This document shows, in pieces, positions 9,791-15,912 of a stretch of DNA of 64,000 bases; the stretch's first letter is position 1; each line of letters starts with the position of its first letter. This stretch comes from Halomonas sp. (GTDB lineage: Bacteria > Pseudomonadota > Gammaproteobacteria > Pseudomonadales > Halomonadaceae), in contig NZ_JAGOBJ010000007.1 in assembly GCF_017983445.1 (NCBI RefSeq), forward strand, positions 1 to 64,000. The letters are read 5' to 3'. The notes beneath the pieces are model-generated. The model did not search any database. It was not told where the DNA came from and saw only the letters and a list, made by a program, of their open reading frames with translations. Made by a program: the position numbers and the translations under genes.

Positions 9791-10681
9791 ATGACTGCTT
9801 CTTCTTGCTACCGTGGACGCTTTGCTCCCACCCCGTCAGGACCGCTCCATTTTGGCTCCCTGGTGGCGGCACTGGGCAGCTTTTTGGATGCCCGCACCGA
9901 GGGCGGTGAATGGCTGGTACGGATCGAAGATATTGATCCGCCGCGCTGCCTTCAAGGGGCCGACACGACCATCCTGCGTCAGCTGGAGGCCTTTGGCCTA
10001 CAGTGGGATAAAGAGATTGTCTGGCAACATGATCGCCATGAGGCTTATCAGCAGGCGCTTGAGCAGCTAACGGCCCTGGAATTGGCCTATCCATGCAGTT
10101 GCTCACGCAAGCAGTGGCAGGCTTATGATATTTATCCAGGCTGGTGTCGCGATGGGCTAAGCGATCCAGGCAAGCCGGTCGCCTGGCGGCTACGCAGCGA
10201 TTTGGCCAGGCGGCCTATCGCCTGGCAGGATCGCCTGTTCGGTCATCAACAGTTCGACCCTGCCGAGATGGGTGACGTGGTGCTCAAGCGCAAGGATAGC
10301 CTTTGGGCTTATCAACTGGCGGTTGTGGTCGACGATGCCGAGCAGGGGATTACCGATGTGGTAAGAGGCCTGGATCTGCTCGACAACACGCCCTGGCAGC
10401 GCCAGCTGCAAATTGCCCTGAAACTTCCTGAGCCACGCTACCTGCATCTACCGCTAGTGGTAACATCACAAGGCCAGAAGCTCTCGAAACAAAACCTCGC
10501 GCCATCGCTTGCCGATGATGAGCAGGGTATTCGCCGCCAGCTTTTTCAGGCGCTTCAAGCGCTCGACCAGTCGCCGCCGCCAGGATTAGCCGCAGAACCT
10601 CCGGCAAGCCAATTACACTGGGCCGTGGCCAATTGGTCGGTTGAGCGCCTTTCGCCCGCCGAACACCGCCTCTCGCCGTAA
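9791..10681 (+). CDS. gluQ: Glutamyl-Q tRNA(Asp) synthetase
   Basis: GluQ attaches glutamate to queuosine in the anticodon of tRNA-Asp. The 296-residue protein looks like a GluRS catalytic domain lacking the anticodon-binding domain. It has a HIGH variant in [10 protein letters not shown] (about 16-25), a zinc site built from CSCS (about 102) and YPGWC (about 117), and KMSKS as KLSKQ (about 235). It follows dksA, the usual partner in Pseudomonas and Enterobacteria. Confidence 0.94.
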
Positions 10682-10691
10682 GGAATTAACT

Positions 10692-10868
10692 ATGTATGTC
10701 TACCGCATCATGCTGTTTTTGGTGTTTGGCGGTTACTTACTCTCTCCATTATTAATGGATGGCTGGAGCGATCCCAGTACGGCTTGGTATCGTCCGTTTG
10801 CGATCTGGGGCGTGTTGATTGCGCTCACGCTATGGCTTGAGCAAAAAAGGAAGTTAGATGAGCGTTGA
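10692..10868 (+). CDS. cbrX: Small membrane protein upstream of cbrA (CbrX-like)
   Basis: A 58-residue ORF with two hydrophobic segments (about 5-20 and 35-50) and a short charged tail, preceded by AAGGA. Its last 11 bp overlap the cbrA start, so cbrA translation is probably coupled to it. Pseudomonas has a comparable small ORF (cbrX) in the same place; I assign the name by position and character, not by sequence comparison. Confidence 0.75.
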   Translation: MYVYRIMLFLVFGGYLLSPLLMDGWSDPSTAWYRPFAIWGVLIALTLWLEQKRKLDER

Positions 10869-13800
10869 GTTAACCGGCGTTTTACTGCTCGGCTTAGGTT
10901 ATCTGGGCCTGCTGTTTAGCTGTGGCGTTGCCGTAGAGCGCGGCTGGATACCCACACGGATTGCTCGTCATCCGCTGGTTTACACGCTCGCCCTAGGGGT
11001 TTATGCCAGCGCCTGGGCCATCTATGGCAGCGTCGAGCTTGCCGCCAATGCAGGGTTTGGTTATCTGGCCTATTATCTGGGCGCGGCGGGTACGTTTCTG
11101 CTCGCACCGGTGCTGCTGGTACCCATTCAGCGGATTACCCGTACCTACCAGCTCGCCTCATTGGCGGATCTGTTTGCGTTTCGCTTTCGCTCTCGCTGGG
11201 CAGGCACGCTGGTCACGTTGATCAGCCTGCTGGCGGTGCTGCCGCTGTTGGGTATTCAGGTTCAAACCTTGAGCGATGCCATTCACTGGGTTACCGGCAG
11301 CGCCTATAGCTCTGGCGCAGCGCTTTTGTTTTGCGGGTTGATTGCGGTATTTGCCGTGGTCTTCGGTGCGCGGCATAGCCATGCCCGCCAGGACCCGCTG
11401 ATCAGTATTCTGGCATTTGAGTCATTGATCAAACTGTTCGCGATGCTCGGCTTGGGCGCGGCAGCGTTATGGCTTGTATTTGACGGCCCCCAGGACCTGC
11501 AGCGCTGGCTTGAAGGCCCAGGCTTTCAAACCCAGTTGGCGACTCCTCAGTTCGAGGCGGCCCAGTGGCGTACGCTGCTGCTGCTGTTTTTTGCAGCCGC
11601 CTTCATGATGCCCCATCTGTTTCATATCACGTTTGCCGAAAACCTGTCGCGCCATACGCTGCTTCAGGCCAGCTGGGCCCTGCCGTTATACCTGTTACTC
11701 ATGGCCCTGCCGATACCGCTTATCTGGTGGGCCGCCCAGTCCGTCAATGAGGAGATTCCGGTCGCGGCCTACGCCGTTTATATGATGAGCGAACACTGGT
11801 GGATCAAGGCACTGGCATTTCTTGCCGGGCTTGCCGCCGCCAGCGGTACCATGATCATGATCGCTCTGGCCCTTTCCGGCATGGTGCTCAACCATATCGT
11901 GCTGGTGGCCAGGCCTCCAGAAGCCCGAAGCGACCTATATGGCTGGCTGCTCTGGCTACGCCGGGGCCTGGTAGTCGGCGTTATTATTAGCGGCTGGCTG
12001 TTTTATGAATGGGTGGGGCGTAATCACGACCTTGCCAGCCTTGGCTTGGCATCGTTTGTCGGCATGGCTCAGTGCTTACCCGGTATGCTGGCGCTGCTCT
12101 ATTGGCCGGGCGCCAACCGCATGGGCATGGTGGTCGGGCTGATTGCAGGCGTTGCGCTATGGCTCTGGGGGCTCTGGCTGCCTCTGGTTTTCTCGCTTCC
12201 CACACCACCGCTTCCGTTTGCCCACCTTATCCCGGCCAATGCGCCGCCCTGGTACACGGTCACTTTGCTGTCGCTTGCCACGAACATCGTGCTGTTGATC
12301 GTTATCTCGCTGTTTACGCGTATTTCAGAAGGCGAAAGGTCAGCGGCAGAAGCCTGTTCTGTCGATGCAGTCATTCGCTCGAAACGCTTGCCGCTGGAAG
12401 CCGCCACCGCTGCTGACTTTTCCACCCATCTGGCCCAGGCCATCGGCGATGAGGCAGCCCAGCGCGAGGTTTCCAGAGCGCTAAAAGCTCTCAAACTGAC
12501 ACCTCAAGAGCGGCGTCCTTACGCATTACGTCGACTGCGCGATCGTATTCAGGCCAACCTTTCAGGCTTGATGGGGCCTTCGGTCGCCCGCGATATCGTT
12601 GACCGCTACCTGCCCTATCGCCATGACGATGCGCCAGTAACCGATGACATCCACTTTGTGGAGAGTCGACTGGAAGCCTATCGCTCGCGCCTGACCGGGC
12701 TTGCCCGCGAGCTTGACGGACTGCGTCGTCACCATCGGCAAACGCTGGCTTACCTGCCGGTGGGGCTGTGCGTCTTTGGCGATGATAAAGAACTTATCAT
12801 GTGGAATCAGGCGCTAACGCGTCTTTCAGGCATCAGTGGAGAAAGCGTTATTGGCTCGCGCTGCGACAGCCTGCCCGCGCCATGGTCTGAACTGCTGGGC
12901 AATGTGCTTTCCGCCTCGCAAACGCCGCGTTATAAGCAAGCGGTGTCGCTGCACGGCAAGGACTACTTTTTGACCCTGCATAAAGCGGAGCTAAGCGGCC
13001 ATGATAGCCGGGGCGGCAGCGTCGTTCTGGTTGAAGACCATACCGAGATGAAGTGGCTTGAGGATGAGCTGGTGCATGCCGCTCGCCTGGCGTCTATCGG
13101 CCAGCTGGCGGCGGGCGTGGCCCATGAGATAGGCAACCCGATTACCGGAATCTCATCACTGGCGCAAAATTTACGCTACGATACCAACGACCCTGCCCTG
13201 CTAGAAACCGCCGATCAGATTCAGCAACTGACCCAGCGAGTGACTAAAATAGTTAACTCACTGGTAGGCTTTGCACATGGCGGCCGTCTCTCGGGCCCGC
13301 CACCGGCTTCGCCCGTAGCGCTTAAAGCGATTAGCGAAGACGCATTACACTTGATCCACCTGGCGCGCTCGGGCGAGGATGTAACGCTGATCAACGCCTG
13401 CCCTGAAGATATTGTGGTACGCGGTGATGCGCAGCGGTTAACTCAGGTCATGGTCAACCTGCTAAGCAATGCCCGGGATGCCTGTATGCCCGGCGGTCAC
13501 GTGACGATTACTGCCGACCAGCAAGGCGGCAGCGCCTGGTGGCGAGTAACCGATGATGGCCAGGGGATTGATCCGCGCGTGCGCGATCATCTGTTTGAGC
13601 CTTTCACCACGACCAAACCGGCAGGCGAAGGCACAGGTCTTGGGCTATCGCTTGCGTATCAGATCATCAATGAACATCAAGGCAAGATAGACGTGGCCTC
13701 ACCACCTCCCGACGAGCCTCGCGGCACGGCCATTACGCTTTGGCTGCCGCTTTACCAACAGGATGACTCGCAATCCCATGCCCAGGATTCTGATTGTTGA
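10858..13800 (+). CDS. cbrA: Sensor histidine kinase CbrA with transporter-like domain
   Basis: CbrA is the sensor of the CbrAB system controlling carbon/nitrogen balance and amino-acid use. The 980-residue protein begins with about 13 membrane helices of the sodium:solute symporter (SLC5) type (about 1-500). A linker and a PAS domain (about 625-730) follow. The kinase core has the H-box [11 protein letters not shown] (phospho-acceptor His756), N-box (NLLSNARDA, about 866), G1 (DDGQGID) and G2 (GTGLGLSLA). It overlaps the small upstream ORF and, at its 3' end, cbrB. The transporter domain binds histidine in P. putida CbrA; the ligand here is unknown. Confidence 0.95.
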
Positions 13801-15163
13801 AGATGAAGCGATTATTCGCAGCGCCCTGAAGCGCTTACTCGAACGCCATGACTATACCGTCAGCGAAGCGGGCAGCGTTGAAGACGCCAGCCAACTGGCA
13901 CTTAACGAGTTCGATCTCATCATCAGCGACCTGCGCCTGCCGGGCGAACCGGGCACCACGCTGATCAGTGCCGCCGCCCCTGCGCCGGTGCTGATCATGA
14001 CCAGCTATGCCAGTATGCGCTCAGCGGTGGACGCCTTGAAACAAGGTGCGGTCGACTATATCGCCAAGCCGTTTGACCATACGGAGCTGCTTGAGACCAT
14101 TGAGCGCATTTTGCATCAGCAGTCGATGCAGCACGGTGAGCCGCCCGCGATTACCGATGCTGGCGGCAGCCAGCAAATGATGATCGGTAACTGCGCGGCC
14201 ATGCAGCAGGTCTATACGCGTATTCGCAAAACCGCCCCGGCCGACGTTACCGTACTGATTCTGGGTGAATCGGGTACCGGTAAGGAGCTTGTCGCCCGGG
14301 CGATTCATCAGCAGAGCAAGCGCGCCAAAGCGCCGCTGATCAGCGTTAACTGCGCGGCTATTCCGGAAACGCTGATCGAATCAGAGCTGTTTGGGCATGA
14401 AAAAGGCGCGTTTACCGGCGCCAGCGCATCGCGTACCGGCTTGGTAGAAGCCGCCGACCAGGGCACGCTGTTTTTGGATGAAATAGGCGAGCTACCTCTG
14501 GATGCCCAAGCGCGTCTTCTGCGTGTACTGCAGGAGGGTGAAATTCGCAAGATCGGCTCGGTCGAAACCCGGCACGTGAATGTCCGCCTGATTGCCGCGA
14601 CACACAGGGACCTACGCGCCCTGTCCAAGAGCGGTGAATTCCGCCTGGATCTTTATTACCGCCTAAACGTCATGCAGATCGAGCTGCCCCCGCTTCGCGA
14701 ACGCGAAGACGATGTGCTTGAAATCGCCGATATACTGCTGGATAAGGCGTGCACTCGGCACGAACGTCCCGGCCTGCGGCTTTCCAGAGCCGCACGCCAG
14801 GATTTACGCGATTACCCCTGGCCAGGTAACGTCCGCGAGCTGGAAAATGCCCTGGAGCGGGGGGTAATCCTGGCCGAGGGCCATTTGATTCATCCTGACG
14901 ACCTGGGGCTTGCGCCAACGTCACCTCGTGGCCATTCGCAGGCCAGCCCAGCGGCATCGCCTCCCGGTGACGAGGCTGCGCAGGCGGAAGATGAGGACGA
15001 TCTTTCCCTGGAAGATTACTTTCAGCACTTTGTGCTTGAGCACCAGGACCTGATGAGTGAAACCGAGCTGGCTCAAAAGCTTGGCATCAGCCGCAAGAAC
15101 TTATGGGAGCGGCGCCAGCGGCTGGGTATCCCACGCAAAAAGACTGCGCGGCGTCCTAACTGA
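13778..15163 (+). CDS. cbrB: Sigma-54-dependent response regulator CbrB
   Basis: An NtrC-family activator of 461 residues. The receiver domain has its phospho-acceptor Asp51 in ISDLRLPG. The AAA+ domain has Walker [15 protein letters not shown] (sigma-54 contact) and Walker [11 protein letters not shown]. The C-terminal Fis-type helix-turn-helix is at about 430-455. The ATG at 13778 matches the family start MPxILIVEDE and overlaps cbrA by 23 bp; an ATG five codons earlier is possible. In Pseudomonas CbrB activates the crcZ promoter, and a CrcZ-like gene follows here. Confidence 0.95.
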
Positions 15164-15265: not shown

Positions 15266-15329
15266 TGTTACCTACCCACACAAATAACCCAAAAAACCGA
15301 CTCGGATCCGGTAACACTTGCTTGTTACC
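15266..15329. promoter_or_regulatory. Candidate CbrB binding sites upstream of crcZ
   Basis: Three copies of one 7-bp element occur here: TGTTACC (15266-15272), GGTAACA (15310-15316) and TGTTACC (15323-15329), the last two forming an inverted repeat with a 6-bp spacer. CbrB sites described at Pseudomonas crcZ are TGTTAC/GTAACA inverted repeats. These lie 62-125 bp upstream of the sigma-54 promoter, a usual enhancer distance. The spacing differs from the Pseudomonas form, so the assignment is an inference. Confidence 0.6.
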
Positions 15330-15390: not shown

Positions 15391-15406
15391 TGGCACGACG
15401 AGTGCA
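15391..15406 (+). promoter_or_regulatory. Sigma-54 promoter of crcZ-like RNA
   Basis: TGGCACGACGAGTGCA has the -24 GG and -12 GC separated by 10 bp, a 15-of-16-type match to TGGCACG-N4-TTGCA. Transcription would start near 15417. It lies downstream of the GGTAACA elements. Confidence 0.85.
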
Positions 15407-15416
15407 ATATTACTGG

Positions 15417-15870
15417 GTAAGAAAAACAAACTGGGCCGAGCGGTGGGTCGCTAACAAAAACAACATGACACCACCCCAACCTGAGCCATAACAAAAACAA
15501 CAGGGCCAGGTGAGATAACAGCACTAATAACAATAACAGGCTTACATCTCTGACTTGCTGGCGCTAAGAAGAATAAGCGCAGCTAATAAAAACAACAGAT
15601 AGCAAGTGCCCAAAAATGGACGCGACGTACGCCAAATGATCTGCGCACCAACAAGAATAATAGCAGTGAGTGTGTACACCCCCGGAATCAACAATAATAC
15701 GTCGGGGAAGAAAAGTTCGCGGTTGGATTATTGTTTTGAATACGAGGCGGTCGGAAATTGCCTATCGACTGCGGTGCGTATTCAGGGCGATGTGCCATCA
15801 TGAAGAAAAACAGCAGCATGGACGCTGATTGAACACTTTATAGGGGAGGCTCTTTTAGCCTCCCCTTTCC
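15417..15870 (+). ncRNA. crcZ: CrcZ-like Hfq/Crc-sequestering small RNA
   Basis: A non-coding interval of about 450 nt between a sigma-54 promoter and a strong terminator, directly downstream of cbrB as crcZ is in Pseudomonas (about 400 nt there). It contains many unpaired-looking A-rich CA motifs of the AAnAAnAA kind: AACAAAAACAACA at 15453 and 15490, AATAACAATAACA near 15526, AATAAAAACAACA near 15585, AACAAGAATAATA near 15650, AACAATAATA near 15690 and AAGAAAAACAGCA near 15802. In Pseudomonas such motifs bind Hfq with Crc and relieve catabolite repression. No convincing ORF lies in it. The 5' and 3' ends are estimates. Confidence 0.88.
15842..15868 (+). terminator. crcZ Rho-independent terminator
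   Basis: GGGGAGGCT-CTTTT-AGCCTCCCC stem followed by TTT; the 9-bp GC-rich stem ends the non-coding interval. Confidence 0.85.
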
Positions 15871-15912
15871 GCGTTTAAAGGATAAGGCGTTCGCAAACCT
15901 GCCGGAGGTGCT

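Follow-up and report, generated by a model that had tools for sequence, protein, structure and literature searches.

A very probable CrcZ-type decoy RNA with an added 3' hairpin module downstream of cbrB in Halomonas and its relatives

Does the interval between cbrB and pcnB of a halomonad encode a decoy RNA of the CrcZ type? The Hfq/Crc complex blocks the use of second-choice foods, and a decoy RNA soaks the complex up. We addressed this question in a 64,000-nucleotide stretch of Halomonas sp. DNA (the window), with the gene order dksA-gluQ-cbrX-cbrA-cbrB-RNA-pcnB, in which dksA, gluQ, and other neighbors carry presumed names, supported in part by structure and NCBIfam matches. On the plus strand, a cbrX-like ORF of 75 codons (10641..10868), named by position and without an NCBIfam match, overlaps the start of cbrA (10858..13800), which encodes a 980-aa SLC5-type sensor histidine kinase matching PDB entry 10ed_A ("histidine kinase") over residues 1-589 (E 1.8e-173). 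The next gene on this strand, cbrB (13763..15163), encodes a 466-aa sigma-54 response regulator, assigned from the ORF and the CbrB search, with NCBIfam matches of the NtrC type. Between its stop codon (15163) and pcnB (16002) lie 838 bases. The predicted RNA (15417..15872, plus strand, about 455 nt), its start placed from the promoter and its end from the terminator, adjoins cbrB on its 3' side and precedes pcnB, the position of a CrcZ-type RNA. The span of 15417..15870 given in a first-pass annotation was good, with the CbrB half-sites upstream of it; its statement that no ORF is present held in that the 838 bases contain no convincing gene, but one frame of at least 60 codons does occur inside the RNA (65 codons, GTG start). 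This frame is unlikely to be coding because aligned relatives carry indels across it. The closest named locus was that of "Halomonas colorata" (L179; CbrB 97% identical), and Vreelandella lutescens (L169) reached 88%; we infer that genus g1 is Vreelandella, and the PcnB tree suggests that g4 is Salinicola and g2 Chromohalobacter.

The layout proposed by the first-pass annotation, with a sigma-54 promoter, CbrB sites, repeats, and a terminator after cbrB, was borne out by the positions of the elements. The sigma-54 -24/-12 promoter TGGCACGACGAGTGCAA (15391..15407, plus strand), recognized by pattern and conservation, lies 3' of the cbrB stop, and its site TGGCACGACGAGTGCA has GG at 15392 and GC at 15404 (GG-N10-GC). 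Also past the cbrB stop and on the plus strand are the CbrB half-sites F (TGTTAC, 15266..15271) and R (GTAACA, 15311..15316), identified by sequence pattern and conservation, and a second F half-site (TGTTAC, 15323..15328) that is present in L179 as well. An equal arrangement of TGTTAC, GTAACA, and GG-N10-GC is described for both crcZ and crcY of P. putida in the available part of PMC6296734. The distance between the F and R half-sites is 45 bp here, compared with mostly 20-23 bp in the Pseudomonas CrcZ loci examined. The terminator (15842..15868, plus strand), assigned from sequence and the alignment of relatives, contains the hairpin AGGGGAGGCT-CTTTT-AGCCTCCCCT at 15842-15866 with a 10-bp stem; a like hairpin occurs in all 25 aligned genus-g1 transcripts, two of which (L032 and L034) have it in a shorter form. 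It was absent from the list of a consensus scanner, which probably missed it owing to its requirement for five T in eight positions.

The RNA is rich in CA motifs, counted here as runs of at least three AAN triplets, (AAN)3+. Nine such runs occur in 15417-15872, seven of them four triplets long, so that the "at least seven" motifs claimed earlier were right and on the low side. All lie on the plus strand: motif 1 (AAGAAAAACAAA, 15419..15430), motifs 2 and 3 (both AACAAAAACAAC, 15453..15464 and 15490..15501), motif 4 (AATAACAATAAC, 15526..15537), motif 5 (AAGAAGAATAAG, 15566..15577), motif 6 (AATAAAAACAAC, 15585..15596), motif 7 (AACAAGAATAAT, 15650..15661), motif 8 (AACAATAAT, 15690..15698), which by pairing prediction complements the 5' arm of a 3' hairpin module, and motif 9 (AAGAAAAAC, 15803..15811), at the end of that module. 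Dinucleotide shuffles averaged 0.91 runs of at least three triplets and 0.12 runs of four, and the observed numbers were reached in 0 of 2,000. Across the whole window, seven of the eight four-triplet runs on the plus strand fall in the RNA, and the minus strand has none. Several CA (AANAANAA) motifs are predicted to be accessible, as in a CrcZ-type RNA: the mean predicted unpaired fraction was 0.91 for the motifs versus 0.35 for the remaining RNA, many motifs fall in predicted hairpin loops, and motif 9 is half paired. The predicted fold is stabler than those of 100 shuffles (z -4.8), and the offsets of the motifs are near-fixed across the 25 aligned genus-g1 transcripts. A reading of the region as mere A-rich spacer, not transcribed or without function, is hardly credible against a motif number so far above the shuffles, near-fixed spacing in 25 relatives, and the conservation of promoter, half-sites, and terminator.

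The Rfam CrcZ covariance model (RF01675) did not recover the locus, which scored 13.5 bits at best against a gathering score of 95. Among twelve loci submitted, three from Pseudomonas scored 309-320 bits and L062 scored 102.5, and the other eight had no match; every Halomonadaceae, Marinobacter, Microbulbifer, and Gilvimarinus locus submitted was missed. The RNA is a CrcZ orthologue by position and design that lies outside RF01675. A search of its own genome with this model gave five weak matches, none above the cut-off and two of them from this locus; matches in 9 of 14 control genomes mean that such weak scores carry little weight. No second copy (crcY) was found in the genome: the exact promoter pattern found the known site alone, the 3'-module model added none, and RF01675, a poor detector here that a diverged copy could escape, gave no second copy over the cut-off. 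The best weak RF01675 match, on L001, was rejected as a second crcZ, being the 5' region of a substrate-binding protein gene, presumably TctC-like. The CA-rich stretch at L001:1480-1530 lies directly before the start of that gene and is likely, on its sequence, a further Hfq/Crc target.

The protein partners of a CrcZ-type RNA are encoded in the genome. The crc gene, which the first-pass annotation had recommended looking for, was found at L009:1492-2259, flanked by what we take to be pyrE and rph. Its product matches the Crc structure 4jg3 (E 1.3e-74) and has N, T, N, E, Y at positions where XthA of the same genome has E, D, N, D, H, so that four of five nuclease residues are replaced; the NCBIfam label is exodeoxyribonuclease III, and NCBIfam showed no Crc model for it. 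Hfq (L010:1456-1704) matches that of P. aeruginosa (E 6.1e-40), and the genome accordingly encodes Hfq along with a Crc that lacks the nuclease residues, as expected for a CrcZ-type system. Position 25 of Hfq, on the A-rich RNA-binding face, is Phe here and Tyr in P. aeruginosa, which weighs against the decoy reading. A Crc match (E<=1e-50) was present in all 151 family genomes. In other families, Crc-family matches occurred in 34 of 35 submitted cbrB-bearing genomes and also in 6 of 16 without CbrB. Of 30 non-family Crc loci fetched, two of them from CbrB-less genomes, nine retain the full nuclease set of five residues; for these two reasons the co-occurrence of Crc outside the family was discounted as strong support. 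The nine Crc-like best matches with all five residues (L136, L137, L138, L140, L146, L148, L151, L152, and L157) come from cbrB-bearing genomes and may be either true nucleases or relatives of Crc in which the activity was never lost.

A CbrB match (E<=1e-120) was found in 114 of 151 family genomes and in 303 of the 390 genomes of the GTDB order, of which the weakest order-wide matches (f27, about 1e-121 to 1e-128) may be paralogues. We examined 94 loci, namely the best 30 of the family search, 24 more of the order search, and 40 picked for spread; L092, with no cbrB match, was left out, and 93 remained, with about 20 further families having a CbrB match outside this sample, because places were given for the best matches. 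Of the 93, 87 have a CA motif downstream of a sigma-54 site, comprising 51 loci of family f1 and 36 from 19 other families (11 of these in f21, probably Pseudomonadaceae); within 220 bases upstream, TGTTAC occurred in 82 of these and GTAACA in all 87. The six that did not pass were L063, L074, L079 (contig end), L081 (half-sites and five runs), L082, and L103. Both loci of f8 (L082 and L103) have cbrB and a Crc-family match, yet no CA array with a promoter after cbrB, and G185 (f36, in the order) has cbrAB and no CA array; these count against the decoy reading. Several families have a low number of CA motifs, two or three runs, so that not every family is a strong case. Among 80 named loci picked by PcnB, 75 had the promoter and CA motifs, three of them without a visible cbrB: L161 (Salinicola), L205 (too close to the start of its contig), and L211 (a MAG). 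The five failures were L171 (truncated) and four loci that lack cbrB and show 0 or 1 run: a Chromatiales MAG, two Thiodiazotropha, and Zobellella. Both cbrB and the locus occur in named genera such as Marinobacter, Microbulbifer, Oceanospirillum, Zhongshania, Gilvimarinus, Spongiibacter, and Cellvibrio, and the order cbrB-RNA-pcnB is also found in named Pseudomonas and other genera; the named and unnamed samples overlap, L159 sharing its promoter with L048 and L172 with L075. The earlier proposal that the circuit is conserved in halomonads is supported at the level of sequence, and its predicted reach extends far beyond them.

Two further observations were made in this sample. L063 (G297, f29) has cbrB and no CA array after it, and its genome has no Crc-family match (E<=1e-30), a joint absence of decoy and Crc. 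Five loci (L060, L080, L093, L099, and L183) have two sigma-54 matches with CA motifs between cbrB and pcnB, which possibly represent tandem crcZ copies in several other families.

CbrAB is described as exclusive to Pseudomonadaceae in the available parts of a 2022 review (PMC8871633) and of a 2018 paper (PMC6296734), and the same parts of the review describe the synteny of CbrAB with crcZ as likewise exclusive. Such exclusivity does not fit the order-wide occurrence of CbrB and the locus read from these genomes. No report of crcZ outside Pseudomonadaceae was found among the open-access papers examined, including PMC5073097, PMC8312277, and PMC13022988; a search of the open-access literature gave nothing on CrcZ with Marinobacter, and among the matches listed there was no CrcZ with marine taxa and no Crc/Hfq catabolite repression in Salinicola. 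As a marker of the circuit, CbrA was rejected, since 10 genomes outside the order have it (12 of 114 of the class overall). Nine of these 10 could be read past cbrB and show 0 or 1 AAN run (L294 was too short), which suggests that the decoy may be this order's addition to an older CbrAB. One locus outside the order, L292, has TGTTAC, GTAACA, and GG-N10-GC right after cbrB and no CA motif, and is perhaps a CbrB target without a decoy.

The relationship between the RNA and its presumptive activator could be examined in relatives without CbrB. A CbrB match (E<=1e-120) was missing in 7 of 24 family genera, and 13 genomes of CbrB-less genera were examined, plus G024, in which cbrB is apart from pcnB and no array was found beside either gene. 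All 13 CbrB-less loci have GG-N10-GC upstream of pcnB, and the 500 bases that follow it contain between three and eight CA runs of four triplets; the upstream neighbor is gluQ in 12 and dksA in L125. Both half-sites, within ranges from the -24 GG of -110 to -145 for TGTTAC and -78 to -95 for GTAACA, were present in 65 of 65 CbrB-bearing family promoters (63 distinct; L074, without a promoter, and the truncated L171 left out) versus 0 of 14 CbrB-less promoters, that is, the 13 loci and the named Salinicola salarius L161; L120 has a TGTTAC elsewhere, at -68. In other families, using a wider range, both were present in 30 of 36 CbrB-bearing promoters. The loss of the half-sites alongside CbrB is the best evidence, from comparison of sequences, for the half-sites as CbrB sites. 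A different element, GCACCA (-90 to -150), was found in 14 of 14 CbrB-less promoters, in 27 of 37 CbrB-bearing non-Vreelandella promoters (26 of 35 distinct), and in 0 of 28 Vreelandella promoters. In the nine Crc proteins examined from CbrB-less genomes (L295-L303), N replaces the catalytic E and T/S the first D, and the survival of the RNA with Crc where CbrB is gone suggests that the decoy matters by itself.

In a PcnB tree of 61 sequences (three short ones dropped), parsimony gave two CbrB changes with presence ancestral; the support was 0.41 (weak) for the larger CbrB-less clade and 0.998 for the Salinicola clade. In Chromohalobacter canadensis (L159:2542-2665), cbrB lies directly after gluQ with no cbrA between and the half-sites are kept, and this locus may be an intermediate in CbrB loss. 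L165 and L220 resemble this orphan-cbrB arrangement by tblastn, and G105 (f1, g20), alone in an otherwise CbrB-bearing genus, gave no CbrB match though Crc is present, through either a loss or an assembly gap. In some halomonad relatives, the decoy seems to have outlived its own switch, and in the CbrB-less genera another activator probably took over. What we take to be the NtrC consensus matched the 13 CbrB-less promoters in 7-9 of 10 letters, with 0-156 of 200 shuffles scoring as well, which leaves NtrC only a candidate for the new activator.

The most conserved stretch of the 25 genus-g1 transcripts in the alignment was the hairpin before the terminator and not the CA array. This Halomonadaceae 3' hairpin module (15719..15810, plus strand, by a match of model R1) was found by nhmmer in 78 of 186 loci, all from f1 or from named Halomonas, relatives, and Oceanospirillum, both with and without CbrB; it was undetected by nhmmer in L125, L126, and L074. 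The stricter filters of model R1 gave matches in 4 of 125 genomes of the order, all f1 and one copy each, none in 121 genomes of other families, and nothing in 54 further loci. The module was kept in 11 of 13 CbrB-less loci. Ten pairs of the outer stem, eight of them consecutive, are identical in 49 of 49 rows. Covariation is seen in the inner helix, which has eight pairs, none invariant, and is 95.4% paired. Over the 49 distinct module sequences, 93.9% of cells were paired versus 90.9 in shuffles, two-sided changes occurred at nine pairs (equalled in 1 of 500 shuffles) and in 42 cells versus 8.9 (reached in 0 of 500), and the number of further pair types was equalled by 31 of 500, all under controls that favor the structure because it was derived from the same 49 sequences and the shuffles ignore kinship. 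On this evidence the module appears to be a conserved, covarying halomonad addition to the RNA.

Such conservation raises two other explanations of the RNA. It could be a CbrB/sigma-54-controlled RNA whose main conserved halomonad function is the module, acting by protein binding or base pairing with mRNAs, with the CA motifs secondary or shared. The rank of the module as the most conserved stretch in g1, its invariant outer stem and covarying inner helix, its retention without CbrB, and its absence from the 121 genomes of other families all speak for this; we nevertheless consider it unlikely, given that the CA-motif offsets are near-fixed in g1, that CA motifs are found in all 13 CbrB-less loci, and that L125 and L126 keep CA motifs with the module undetected. 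Still less probable is that the 3' stretch belongs to a small RNA of its own, or acts at the DNA level, and shares the intergenic region by chance. The very high sequence identity within the stem would suit it, but the stretch sits between the CA array and the conserved terminator, inner-helix changes preserve RNA pairing, and most non-Vreelandella rows have a CA-like motif in the apical loop of the module.

Within the preferred reading, a CrcZ-type decoy, the module could stabilize the RNA, bind a second protein, show an extra CA motif in its loop, or hide CA motif 8 by pairing. The outer stem AUUGUUUUGAAUACG/CGUAUUCARGGCGAU retains its G-U pairs, a hint that its U-rich arm is under a further constraint. 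The sequence of this arm is complementary to a CA motif, and AACAAUAAU of the window (15690) can pair with it; this pairing and the hairpin have similar predicted energies, and the minimum fold differs from the centroid fold. We think that a second binding or stability function is likelier than none. As a tentative proposal, held with less than even confidence, the Halomonadaceae decoy would be a two-part RNA, a CA array and a family-specific hairpin with its own job, that has been freed from the carbon sensor: in Chromohalobacter, whose locus has lost cbrA, CbrB would act alone, and in Salinicola and relatives without cbrXAB, the decoy would be under another sigma-54 activator that reads GCACCA, possibly NtrC.

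Candidate targets were sought as a CA motif followed by ATG within 25 bases. The count itself was rejected as evidence for targets, with no clear excess (31 sites versus 25 for a backwards-pattern control). Of the 31 places, 30 were fetched and, two pairs being identical, gave 28 distinct sites, one of which is the RNA itself; 11 of the 28 open an ORF of at least 130 codons near the first start, compared with 3.4% of random sites, a lenient null because A-rich sites tend to be intergenic anyway. With L245 added for its longer frame upstream, 12 genes were counted: a Peripla_BP_6 binding protein, CstA, a BhcA-like aminotransferase, a thioesterase, the protocatechuate 3,4-dioxygenase beta subunit, a FAD-binding hydroxylase-type enzyme, a BCCT transporter, an AMP-binding acyl-CoA synthetase-like enzyme, an aldose epimerase, a phosphonate-type binding protein, and two DctP proteins (L248 by Pfam and L264 by NCBIfam). 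The genes behind these sites belong to transport or catabolism, and genes of such kinds are controlled by Hfq/Crc in Pseudomonas, according to the available part of PMC6422490.

Taken together, the locus very probably makes a CrcZ-type decoy RNA for Hfq/Crc. The promoter, half-sites, motif excess, gene order, and tracking of half-sites with CbrB favor this reading, as do the predicted unpaired state of the CA motifs, the stable predicted fold, the family-wide Crc, the Hfq match, and the candidate targets; the RF01675 score of 13.5 of 95 bits and the site count of 31 versus 25 count against it. The CrcZ-type assignment of the first-pass annotation draws its support from the order of genes and control elements, the Crc residues, the P. 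aeruginosa-like Hfq, and the CA motifs that precede catabolic genes; the family-specific 3' module and the CbrB-less relatives go beyond that annotation. What is read directly from the genomes is the set of elements with their conservation, together with the partners and the candidate targets. When good carbon sources are exhausted, CbrA would activate CbrB, which would bind the TGTTAC/GTAACA half-sites and drive the sigma-54 promoter at 15391-15407. The resulting RNA of about 455 nt would present nine AAN-rich CA motifs, mostly unpaired, that would sequester Hfq together with Crc and so clear the start sites of mRNAs for catabolism and transport. The steps from transcription and its dependence on CbrB to the binding of Hfq/Crc and the lifting of repression are proposed by analogy with P. 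aeruginosa CrcZ, as described in the available parts of PMC6422490 and PMC9890229.

Comparison with known systems places the RNA close to CrcZ of Pseudomonas and Azotobacter (RF01675), which it resembles in its place between cbrB and pcnB, its sigma-54 promoter, TGTTAC/GTAACA, and several CA motifs. It has nine CA runs, whereas the entire spacer has four to seven in 34 named Pseudomonas CrcZ loci, and, unlike Pseudomonas CrcZ, it has the added 3' module and an RF01675 score below the cut-off. RsmY/RsmZ and CsrB are also repeat-displaying protein sponges under a two-component system, but they bind RsmA/CsrA via GGA motifs, whereas the RNA here has A-rich motifs for Hfq. CrcY and CrcX, pseudomonad CrcZ-type RNAs that are located elsewhere in the genome, have the decoy principle in common with the RNA here, whose genome differs in that no second copy was found. 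In P. putida, CbrB binds and activates CrcY (PMC6296734, available part), and the length of CrcZ, 426 nt (PMC6422490, available part), is similar to the approximately 455 nt predicted here. Judged from these genomes, a probable decoy of a known type carries a new 3' module in a circuit wider than described in the papers examined.

Should this reading hold, the circuit extends across the order, and the carbon hierarchy of marine and halophilic bacteria such as Vreelandella/Halomonas, Marinobacter, and Microbulbifer would become approachable from the work on Pseudomonas. The CbrB-less relatives provide a natural experiment that parts the decoy from its activator, and, if it is true that NtrC drives the decoy there, carbon catabolite repression would be under nitrogen control. 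The 3' module would be a new RNA domain open to testing.
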